DNA of 32,736 nt from the NCBI GenBank assembly GCA_003222895.1, contig QHXI01000047.1, forward strand, positions 1-32,736, in the 5' to 3' direction. This DNA comes from Acidobacteriota bacterium. Its GTDB lineage: Bacteria; Acidobacteriota; Blastocatellia; Pyrinomonadales; Pyrinomonadaceae. Below the pieces are notes generated by a model. It worked only from the letters and a program-made list of their open reading frames with translations, was not told where the DNA came from and did no database searches. Below are positions 17,745 to 23,627 of the stretch, in pieces (positions within the stretch are counted from its first letter, which is position 1; every line of letters begins with the position of its first letter). Position numbers and translations under genes: made by a program.

Positions 17745-18812
17745 ATGAAGTCACAACAAAGATTCCTCCTGGCTCTCGTCGCTTCGGCGGCGGTTCTTAT
17801 TCTGTGGAATTATCTTTTCCCTCCCGTCAAGCCGCCGCAGCCAAACGCTAACGCGAATGCGAACGCCAACCTTCAGCAGTCAGCTTCGCCTTCGCCGTCA
17901 TCAACAGCAAAGGCCACAGCGACTGCAACCGTGACGCCGACTCCGGCGCAGGCCGCGGCGGCGCCGACACCAACTCCGGAAACAGTTCCGCAAAGAAAGC
18001 TGCGCATCGTCACGCCGCTCTACGAAGCTACGTTCGATACGCGCGGCGCAGTCGTCACGAGTTGGATTCTAAAGAAGGTCAAGAAAAGCGATGGCAGCCT
18101 GCGTGACGTTTATGCCACTGCCTCGACAAAGAACAACCCGAAGCCGCTCGAGCTGATCGCTACACCACCTCCGGGAGTTGCGCCGGATCAACTCTTTCAC
18201 CCGCTTCAAGTCGTGACTGGTGACGCAGCATTTGACAGTGCATTAGCCAGCCGCAATTACCGAACGTTTGGCCCAAATACCGAATCTGGCGATGAAACTA
18301 TCAATGTCCCCGGTGGTTCGACGCAGATTGATTTCGTTATCCACGATGGCGCCACGGGCCTCGATGCAACCAAGCGCCTGACGTTCTTTGCCGATCGATA
18401 CATCGCGGAAGTCGAGCTAAAGCTCACTCATAATAATCAGCCCGTGCCGCAGGCCCGACTTGCTATCGGCCCAAACATCGGCGATCAAAGTATCGAGCAC
18501 TTCAGTTTTTATTCGTATGCGCCCGAAGGCATCGCGATGGTCAACGGCGGGGTGCGCCGCATCAACGCTTTGGAAGTGCACGCCGATAAAATCAGCAACG
18601 GTGTGTTTAGTTCGCTATTCGAATGGCTCGGCTTGAAATCGCCCGTGACGAAGCCGCCCGATCGCGAGCCAATCGAAGGGCAAGTTCAGTGGGCGGGAGT
18701 TGACGACACTTACTTCGGCATGGTGGCGGTGCTGTCCAGGCCGACAAGTGGCTTGGAATATCGGATCGAAGACCGAACTATTCGTCGGTCCCAAGGATCA
18801 TCGATTGCTTGA
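17745..18812 (+). CDS. yidC: YidC membrane insertase, N-terminal part (frame broken)
   Basis: The first 355 codons cover the N-terminal membrane anchor (FLLALVASAAVLILWNYLFP), a low-complexity linker (NANANANANLQQ, then Ala/Thr/Pro-rich) and most of the periplasmic beta-sandwich domain (VTPLYEATFDTRGAVVTSWI through EGQVQWAGVDDTYFGMVAVL). After GLEY at 18759-18761 the frame drifts into RIEDRTIRRSQGSSIA and stops at 18810-18812. The family continues in the next frame from about 18763 as GSKTELFVGPKDH. YidC inserts and folds inner-membrane proteins with or without Sec and is normally essential. The distance between GMVAV and LFVGPK is only about 22 residues, while in E. coli it is several tens longer, so a deletion as well as a frame change is likely. 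Confidence 0.85.
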   Translation: MKSQQRFLLALVASAAVLILWNYLFPPVKPPQPNANANANANLQQSASPSPSSTAKATATATVTPTPAQAAAAPTPTPETVPQRKLRIVTPLYEATFDTRGAVVTSWILKKVKKSDGSLRDVYATASTKNNPKPLELIATPPPGVAPDQLFHPLQVVTGDAAFDSALASRNYRTFGPNTESGDETINVPGGSTQIDFVIHDGATGLDATKRLTFFADRYIAEVELKLTHNNQPVPQARLAIGPNIGDQSIEHFSFYSYAPEGIAMVNGGVRRINALEVHADKISNGVFSSLFEWLGLKSPVTKPPDREPIEGQVQWAGVDDTYFGMVAVLSRPTSGLEYRIEDRTIRRSQGSSIA

Positions 18813-19608
18813 TGAAGCCAGTAAACAGATCGCCACAGCCGGCGGATCGGCAGTCGATCTCGGCAACGTGATCAATTATGGTTTTTTTGGCAGCATGCGC
18901 CGGTTTCTCGCCGTGCCGATTCTGTGGACCATCGACAAGCTGCAAAGGCTGACGCGCAGCTACGGCATTGCGATCATTCTCTTTACAATCTTCATCTATT
19001 CGCTTTTCTTCCCGCTCAAGTGGCAGTCATCGCGCAAGATGAAAAAGGCGCAGAAGTACGCGCCGCGCATGAAAGAGCTGCAGGAAAAATTGAAAGGGAT
19101 GAAGCAGAGCGATCCGCGCATGAAAGAGCTGCAGATGGAGCAGCTGCGTTTGATGAAGGAGGCGAATCCGCTGGGCGGATGTCTGCCCTTGCTGATTCAG
19201 ATGCCGTTTCTGTTTGCACTCTACACGGCAATTACGATCTCGATCGACTTTCGCCAGGCATCGTTTTTGTGGATTCCGGATCTATCTGCGCCTGAGCCCT
19301 ACATTCTGTATTTCCTTCGCGTGCTGCCCGTCATGTTCTGTGGGTCGATGATCGTGCTGCAATTGCTGACGCCCGCGCCATCCGCCGACCCGCTGCAGCG
19401 AAAGATGATGGCCGTCGGCATGCCGCTCTTCATGCTGTACATTTTGTGGAGCGCGCCGTCGGGACTCTTGCTCTACTGGCTGGTTGGAAACATCGTCGGC
19501 TTCCTGCAACAGATGATTATTAATAAGTTGACGAAGGAAGAAGCACCGCCGCCGGACGAGAAAGCTACGAAGAAGAAGCCCAAGAATTTGAAGCCGGCCG
19601 AAGCGTGA
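18763..19608 (+). CDS. yidC: YidC membrane insertase, Oxa1-type core (second half of the broken gene)
   Basis: In the frame beginning near 18763 the sequence gives the end of the periplasmic domain (GSKTELFVGPKDHRLLDEAS) and the entire conserved Oxa1 core: SYGIAIILFTIFIYSLFFPL, the coiled cytoplasmic hairpin KAQKYAPRMKELQEKLKGMK, NPLGGCLPLLIQMPFLFALY, FLWIPDLSAPEPYILYFL, and SAPSGLLLYWLVGNIVGFLQ, ending in a lysine-rich tail. The track of this frame opens upstream at a TTG at 18700 through unrelated residues. If expressed alone it might begin at ATG 18895 (MRRFLAVPILWTIDKLQ), which would give a plain Oxa1-like insertase lacking the periplasmic domain. Joined correctly with 17745 it would make one normal YidC. 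Confidence 0.85.
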   Translation, partial: GSKTELFVGPKDHRLLDEASKQIATAGGSAVDLGNVINYGFFGSMRRFLAVPILWTIDKLQRLTRSYGIAIILFTIFIYSLFFPLKWQSSRKMKKAQKYAPRMKELQEKLKGMKQSDPRMKELQMEQLRLMKEANPLGGCLPLLIQMPFLFALYTAITISIDFRQASFLWIPDLSAPEPYILYFLRVLPVMFCGSMIVLQLLTPAPSADPLQRKMMAVGMPLFMLYILWSAPSGLLLYWLVGNIVGFLQQMIINKLTKEEAPPPDEKATKKKPKNLKPAEA

Positions 19609-19628: not shown

Positions 19629-19795
19629 ATGGTTAAAGCAAAGAAACATCAAGTGAAGTTCAAGGCGCACAAGAAAGTGGGCAACCGGTAGAGGTAAAAT
19701 TCAAAACGAAAAAAGGAAAGCCGGTTGACTTTGTCGCGAAAAAAAAGGTGGAGAAAGTCGTGGAGGTGAAATTTAAGGCGCGCGACAAAAAATAG
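19629..19795 (+). pseudogene. Small lysine-rich repetitive protein, frameshifted
   Basis: GGGAGGAAAT places a strong Shine-Dalgarno sequence directly before ATG 19629. The frame reads MVKAKKHQVKFKAHKKVGNR and stops at 19689-19691. One frame over, from 19685, it continues PVEVKFKTKKGKPVDFVAKK, KVEKVVEVKFKARDKK, ending at TAG 19793-19795. The motif VKFKxxKK occurs before and after the break, so I infer one ancestral protein of about 56 residues with three VEVKFK-type beta-strand repeats and a single-base loss near 19684. It lies 20 nt after the yidC stop. I do not recognise a named family; the basic composition suggests nucleic-acid or membrane-surface binding. Confidence 0.6.
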
Positions 19796-19991
19796 CGCGA
19801 TCACCTTAGCCGCTATTAAGCCGCGTCGCGGCAGAATGTTTATAGCACGCGGCCAATATTTGTTTTGAGACTCCGTAGGAGCGACATATTCGATCGCCCG
19901 TAAACGGACTCGCGAAATTCGTTGAGAGTGGTTCTATAAATATCTCGTCCCTATCGGGACGAAAGCCGGCTGGCCAAACAATCGATGAGGA
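19796..19991. repeat. Intergenic palindromes downstream of yidC
   Basis: This gap holds ACTCCGTAGGAGC (19870-19882) and TCGTCCC-TATC-GGGACGA (19945-19962), both followed or preceded by TATAAATAT-like words. They match the cluster at 20720-20868. No gene was seen. Confidence 0.65.
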
Positions 19992-22265: not shown

Positions 22266-22454
22266 CTAACGCTTCCGGGCTGGTCGCCGAAGCCAATCCG
22301 TGTTCATAAAAGCGGGATCGTAAGTCATCAAACCAAAGTAGTCGTCGTTAACTTTGATCTTACGCAGATCGAGCGCCTTGATCGTTTCGCTTTCGATTGG
22401 CAGCTTGTATTGTTTGCCGGTGCGATTGTCCGTAATGGTCAGTGTGTCATCCAT
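22266..22454 (-). pseudogene. gltA: Citrate synthase 5' fragment
   Basis: From the ATG at 22454 the first 52 residues match the citrate synthase N-terminus: DTLTITDNRTGKQYKLPIES, then IKALDLRKIKV and FGLMTYDPAFMNT. The similarity ends abruptly there at about 22299. Ten unrelated residues (DWLRRPARKR) follow to a stop, and no continuation was found in the other minus-strand frames nearby. Full citrate synthase has about 430 residues and its catalytic His and Asp lie far downstream, so this remnant cannot be active. An AGAAAAGAG-type ribosome site precedes the ATG. The fragment points out of the left end of a segment whose right end carries a similar cysteine synthase fragment. Confidence 0.85.
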
Positions 22455-22568
22455 CGCGTTTCTCTTTTCTCAAGGAGTGCAAAAGGCCTTCGCCGCCACG
22501 CTTAGAACGTGCGCGACGTGAAGACCTGTAATATATAACTTGAGACGAAGTTTTTTGAACTCGTGGAT

Positions 22569-23089: not shown

Positions 23090-23372
23090 ATGCGCAATCT
23101 TTCGCATTCGACGTGTGAAAGGTCGCAGGTTGGACCAACAGCGAAAGTGATCTCCCGCACATTCGCGGCGATGACGCGCAGGGAATAAATATTGCTCAAT
23201 CAATGATGCGCAGGATCGCTTGCTCGATGGCGCCTATGGAATTTGTCAGGAATGCGGCAGCCAGATTGGCGGAAAACGTTTGCTGGCTGATCCAGCCGCG
23301 CTCTTGTGCCTGGTTTGTCAACAGATGACGGAGCAAGAGTCCGCGCGAGGATTGTTCGCGCGCACTCTGTAA
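23090..23372 (+). pseudogene. DksA/TraR-type C4 zinc-finger protein, frameshifted
   Basis: The C-terminal part (about 23205-23372) is unmistakable: DAQDRLLDGAYGICQECGSQ, IGGKRLLADPAALLCLVCQQ, with CQEC and CLVC zinc pairs and the GxYGxC...RL.A.P pattern of the TraR/DksA family. In frame it opens only at 23175 and has no start codon. An N-terminal piece starting at ATG 23090 in another frame reads MRNLSHSTCERSQVGPTAKV and then ISRTFAAMTRRE before a stop. Joining them needs two single-base corrections, near 23185 and 23203, which would give INIAQSINDAQDRLL. Such short proteins bind RNA polymerase through the secondary channel or act as unknown regulators. The zinc finger is certain; the N-terminal reconstruction is less so. 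Confidence 0.65.
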
Positions 23373-23384
23373 CCGAAGATTGGT

Positions 23385-23627
23385 ATGCGTGAACAACTAA
23401 CAACGATCCAACCATTGGGCAGCGTTGGCAATTTTGCGGCTAAGGCGAATCCGTCACGGCTCGATGTCGCAACGCGCTGCAAAGATTTGAAGCACATGAT
23501 CGGCAACACGCCGCTGTTGGCCCTCCGCTTTCTCTATCGCGGCAAGTCGCTGGTAATCTACGCCAAAGCCGAACACATCAACATGACTGTTGACGGCAAG
23601 CCAAAGCCCTCCGCAAGCAAACTCTAG
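23385..23627 (+). pseudogene. Cysteine synthase-family 5' fragment
   Basis: Residues about 32-68 ([20 protein letters not shown], then [16 protein letters not shown]) match the N-terminus of PLP-dependent cysteine synthases. The match ends at about 23588, immediately before the position where SxKDR with the PLP-binding lysine should follow. The last 12 residues ([12 protein letters not shown]) are unrelated. The gene is therefore a 5' remnant without a catalytic lysine. It starts 12 nt after the broken zinc-finger gene and runs out of the right end of the segment, mirroring the truncated citrate synthase on the left. Confidence 0.85.

Follow-up and report, generated by a model that had tools for sequence, protein, structure and literature searches.

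A yidC gene broken across two reading frames in an Acidobacteriota metagenome bin is most likely an assembly artefact

YidC is essential in Escherichia coli, and a cell that lost it would be expected to die or barely survive. How, then, should one read a contig on which yidC is spread over two reading frames: as an insertase made in two pieces, or as a fault of the sequence record? The contig in question (C65) was analysed in full, and its 32,736 bp are referred to here as the window. It belongs to a metagenome assembly (the bin, G000) whose 167 contigs add up to 4.77 Mb at a completeness of 96.4%; the closest named relatives in the contig database searched are soil metagenome-assembled genomes (MAGs) of the Blastocatellia/Pyrinomonadaceae, in the Acidobacteriota. 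The neighborhood of the gene, rnpA-yidD-yidC, is ordinary.

The upstream part of yidC opens in frame 0 with the ATG at 17745 and closes with the TGA at 18810-18812, encoding 355 aa. It is 56-75% identical to the corresponding part of six congeners (G001 to G006), until the frame is lost after 18762 and 16 unrelated residues lead to the stop. In comparison with each of the six, similarity to YidC leaves frame 0 at 18764 and re-enters in the +1 frame at 18763; all six carry the single continuous frame that is absent from this contig. The +1 frame is open from 18649 to a stop at 19606-19608 (319 aa), and the downstream part is 73-87% identical to the congeners. Profile searches assign the two pieces in the same way. 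The downstream part matches PF02096 over its whole length (1-163 of 163; 154-156 bits, cut-off 35) and likewise TIGR03592 (1-191 of 191; 179 bits, cut-off 84.3), the mark of a complete core. TIGR03593 (yidC_nterm) is matched at positions 1-276 of 363 by the upstream piece (80.2 bits, cut-off 58.25) and at 315-362 by the downstream piece, so that profile positions 277-314 represent the missing part. The preliminary description of this locus, which let the upstream reading run through the residues GLEY to 18761 and the core frame begin at 18763, is exact in its coordinates. Beyond yidC, a lysine-rich, repeat-like small ORF occupies 19629-19796 on the plus strand; its frame seems to change near 19688, and no match to it was found among the relatives' loci examined.

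The same description suggested that tens of codons had been lost and the frame changed, and alignment to 11 relatives agrees. The junction lacks 83 bp relative to nine of them, 74 bp relative to G006 and 86 bp relative to G020. All three lengths equal 2 modulo 3 and shift the frame by +1, and the periplasmic P1 domain has lost about 28 codons from its end. Anchor-to-anchor counts lead to the same result: counted from the YF of WAGVDDTYF as far as GPK, the window has 70 nt, or 23.3 codons, whereas the range is 48-65 codons among 75 distinct relatives (87 of the 109 loci entered had usable anchors, the other 22 did not). The Oxa1 core was matched in 56 of 60 genomes (unmatched: G009, G010, G015 and G019), and the open frame that carries it measures at least 585 aa in 53 of the 55 other genomes matched; the exceptions are G032, with 519 aa, and G033, with 379 aa near a contig end. 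The best PDB match to a congener's YidC spans residues 392-615 only, and the lost P1 segment lies outside it. Inspection of the alignment by eye suggests a possible microhomology of 2-4 bases at the junction. Slippage between direct repeats was considered and set aside, the region 18560-18960 having only imperfect repeats of 9-10 bases, none of which convincingly brackets the junction. As for a second yidC elsewhere in the genome, a profile search of the whole bin returned one PF02096 match only.

Table 1. Positions of the yidC parts, the candidate starts of the core, the gene fragments of the window and the two other frame-crossing genes of the bin
Feature	Position	Strand	Basis
Upstream yidC part, TM1 and most of periplasmic P1	17745..18812	+	ORF, TIGR03593 profile 1-276
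Deletion junction (18762/18763, +/- a few bases)	18759..18766	+	DNA alignment, anchors
Downstream yidC part, last P1 residues and whole Oxa1/YidC core, +1 frame	18763..19608	+	PF02096, TIGR03592
Candidate re-initiation TTG, core frame, overlapping the upstream stop 18810-18812	18805..18807	+	anti-Shine-Dalgarno -5.0 kcal/mol
ATG proposed as core start, 237 codons	18895..18897	+	anti-Shine-Dalgarno -2.2 kcal/mol
Citrate synthase, N-terminal fragment (residues 24-79 of 463)	22266-22466	-	83-88% identity to G006 over ~56 residues
160-aa protein, C-terminal part (104-159)	23196-23363	+	comparison with G006
Cysteine-synthase-like protein, N-terminal fragment (16-85 of 388)	23379-23626	+	comparison with G006
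Acetylating acetaldehyde dehydrogenase, lacking 97 bp relative to G005, out of frame	L226 3199-4919 (G000:C51)		
VWA-domain protein, lacking 64 bp relative to G005, out of frame	L200 16727-18060 (G000:C25)		

The upstream half of the gene changes no faster than intact copies and shows no sign of decay. Because most pairs come close to saturation in dS, we used dN alone. The dN of this half to G002 is 0.205, compared with 0.237 for G001 and 0.229 for G003, both of them intact. When measured to the outgroups G005 and G006, the value is lower than in G001 and G003; to G004 it falls between the two, and to G035 it is slightly above them (0.523 versus 0.499 and 0.504). The Oxa1 core, for its part, is under purifying selection like that of the relatives. 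With no sign of decay in the gene, the loss must be either very recent or not real.

Breaks of the same sort occur elsewhere in the bin. In a survey that set 947 kb of the congener G005 against 846 kb of the bin (the window included; 20-22 kb per side being N), three of 73 genes compared crossed frames in the bin: yidC, the gene for an acetylating acetaldehyde dehydrogenase on contig C51 and that for a VWA-domain protein on C25. The reverse comparison gave two frame-crossing genes out of 74, both at the C51 and C25 breaks, so that none is private to G005. The difference between 3/73 and 0/74 is not significant (P = 0.12), nor is that between 2/72 and 0/73 when yidC is left out (P = 0.24); we have therefore put weight on the likeness of the lesions and not on their number. 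All six congeners read the dehydrogenase gene through in a single frame, and five of the six do so for the VWA gene; G003 is unmatched for the latter, and the match in G001 counts one TAA. Among the congeners matched, both losses are thus private to this bin. Microhomology was not evident at either loss in the nucleotide comparison with G005. Other counts speak against a faulty assembly. Genes covered only in part in their interior were no commoner in the bin (five, versus eight in the reverse direction), none of its six full-length ACR_tran (RND) genes is broken, and the ABC ATPase domains include only two interior-looking partial rows among the 58 matches listed. At G000:C109:2973-3284, an open frame of 222 aa holds an ABC ATPase domain matched only at 3-80 of 137, another possible break.

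Stretches of N can imitate such lesions. The contigs sampled from the bin, of which about 823 kb was usable, have N runs of 8, 126 and 231 in their interior; these may mark scaffold gaps, which would fit a faulty assembly, or merely masked sequence. N runs also lie within conserved genes of the congeners, in atpA of G001 (L034 19355-19642, 288) and yidC of G003 (L044 8901-8972, 72), with another of 45; the apparent insertion in the former and deletion in the latter were discarded, being N runs that mimic frame breaks in a naive comparison. A looser first survey (56 genes, 60% identity, no test of colinearity) had returned four multi-frame and three partial genes; half of the multi-frame genes proved to be duplicates or paralogues, and we relied on the stricter survey instead.

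Taken at the two ends of the choice left by the preliminary description, an assembly collapse or a separately made core, the collapse is the better supported, because the bin has two similar, private, out-of-frame losses, because the upstream half of yidC behaves like that of intact genes, and because the bin has one YidC only, which a cell should hardly be able to lose. It falls short of proof, since the survey difference is not significant. Most likely the organism has one intact yidC like its congeners and the contig lost the 83 bp in assembly. The P1 bases could have been dropped, for example, where a brief gap in coverage was closed with no filler, or where coverage was low and a chimeric read was used. 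The break would then most likely be an ordinary draft-genome artefact and not some novel two-piece protein. That spurious pseudogenes can arise from errors of assembly has been published (PMC11017572). The case at hand resembles those in that a conserved gene is broken in one draft and intact in relatives; it differs in that the study tallied frameshifts and internal stops in isolate genomes, MAGs lying outside its scope, whereas the losses here are of 64-97 bp.

The most serious rival is that the contig records a real and recent deletion allele, which would produce a secreted TM1-P1 fragment of 355 aa and a separate, five-TM Oxa1-like core. This we regard as unlikely. Translation of the core would re-initiate after the upstream stop, at TTG 18805 or some other start, and the core would work like the short YidC, SpoIIIJ or Oxa1. 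Short YidC (of the SpoIIIJ type) and mitochondrial Oxa1 do without P1. The orphaned downstream ORF alone is like them, matching PRK02944 with 118.8 bits (below the cut-off of 377), but it has no signal sequence or proven start, and the resemblance is that of an orphaned core's look only. Taken together, the two halves match the long Gram-negative members of the YidC/Oxa1/Alb3 insertases, with TM1, P1 and five-TM core (TIGR03593 for one half, TIGR03592 and PF02096 for the other), although on this contig the gene is divided between two frames and is short of about 28 codons. What speaks for a real allele is that the bin's sole yidC is the broken one, and that its core is complete over all 191 positions of TIGR03592 and constrained as in relatives. 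As far as the cited portions of the literature go, moreover, P1 is reported to be dispensable in E. coli (PMC4124156), and a large deletion of P1 left insertion of the tested substrates in place, YidC as such being essential for cellular homeostasis (PMC7618853). A cell could thus survive a lesion confined to P1 provided that it still made the core, and the question becomes whether it does.

Six codons could start the core in its own frame: TTG 18700, GTG 18748, TTG 18805, GTG 18868, ATG 18895 and GTG 18913. The two TTG codons have moderate anti-Shine-Dalgarno energies (-5.1 kcal/mol at 18700, -5.0 at 18805), stronger than that of the native yidC ATG (-1.8), and TTG 18805 has the added attraction of overlapping the upstream stop. 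The seven usable control starts, however, span energies between 0 and -9.1, and the measure therefore does not discriminate. A search for a sigma-70-like site that might serve the core found 0 versus 0.9 expected, a result that decides little in this phylum. The separate core that had been envisaged from ATG 18895 finds no positive support; TTG 18805 would be the more natural candidate for a restart, and the putative re-initiation of the core is possible but unsupported. Against a real allele, furthermore, the arrangement was found in no relative; the N-terminal half shows no relaxation, so that only a very recent deletion would fit; the core, deprived of TM1, would also be deprived of its usual membrane targeting; and the like lesions in unrelated genes of the bin fit a technical cause. 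That the sole YidC of a Gram-negative bacterium is made as two polypeptides, with the core re-initiated at a stop-overlapping start, in what would amount to a recent conversion from the long to a short Oxa1-like form, strikes us as quite improbable.

Three other gene-cutting junctions on the same contig can be read in two ways, as further signs of a faulty assembly or, to the credit of a real allele, as real rearrangement. Among 22 genes of the window comparable to relatives, yidC alone lies in two frames, and three others are fragments, whose junctions were judged against the one congener that has the region (G006). At the citrate synthase junction, about 2.8 kb of G006 is absent from the window; the remainder of this gene was searched for elsewhere in the bin, where only a 37% paralogue was found. 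Another 260 bp of G006 is absent at 23194-23198, beside the fragment of the 160-aa protein, which by eye has a zinc-finger look and is presumably DksA-like. The cysteine-synthase-like junction lacks about 960 bp of G006, and the fragment is followed by some 770 bp not found in G006, in which we take a HicB/HicA-like pair to lie, judging by eye; the remnant itself has three paralogues at 29-37%. On the evidence of this one comparison genome, the three junctions may be real rearrangements.

Mixed strains offer a further route to the same contig. A minority inactive allele that really exists, or a chimeric read, could have been picked by the assembler over an intact majority. The bin, as a metagenome assembly of 167 contigs, is open to such mixing, and the possible microhomology at the yidC junction is what slippage or template switching might leave. 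Assemblers, however, usually keep the deeper path, and we hold this course of events to be very unlikely. Least credible of all is a programmed +1 ribosomal frameshift, which could fuse the frames into one shortened YidC chain anywhere in their overlap from 18649 to 18812, given that the congeners have no shift here, the fused chain would remain about 28 residues short in P1, no known slippery motif is seen by eye at the stop (GCT TGA), and the fold of the overlap is unremarkable (z = -1.93, DNA parameters).

If an assembly fault accounts for the break, as we favor, the lesson is one of caution: essential genes of a bin that is 96% complete can hold short out-of-frame losses, and claims about gene content or pseudogenes drawn from this bin need reads behind them. 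Should the allele be real after all, the organism would constitute a natural test of whether a Gram-negative bacterium can live with a YidC core that is free of P1 and separately made.
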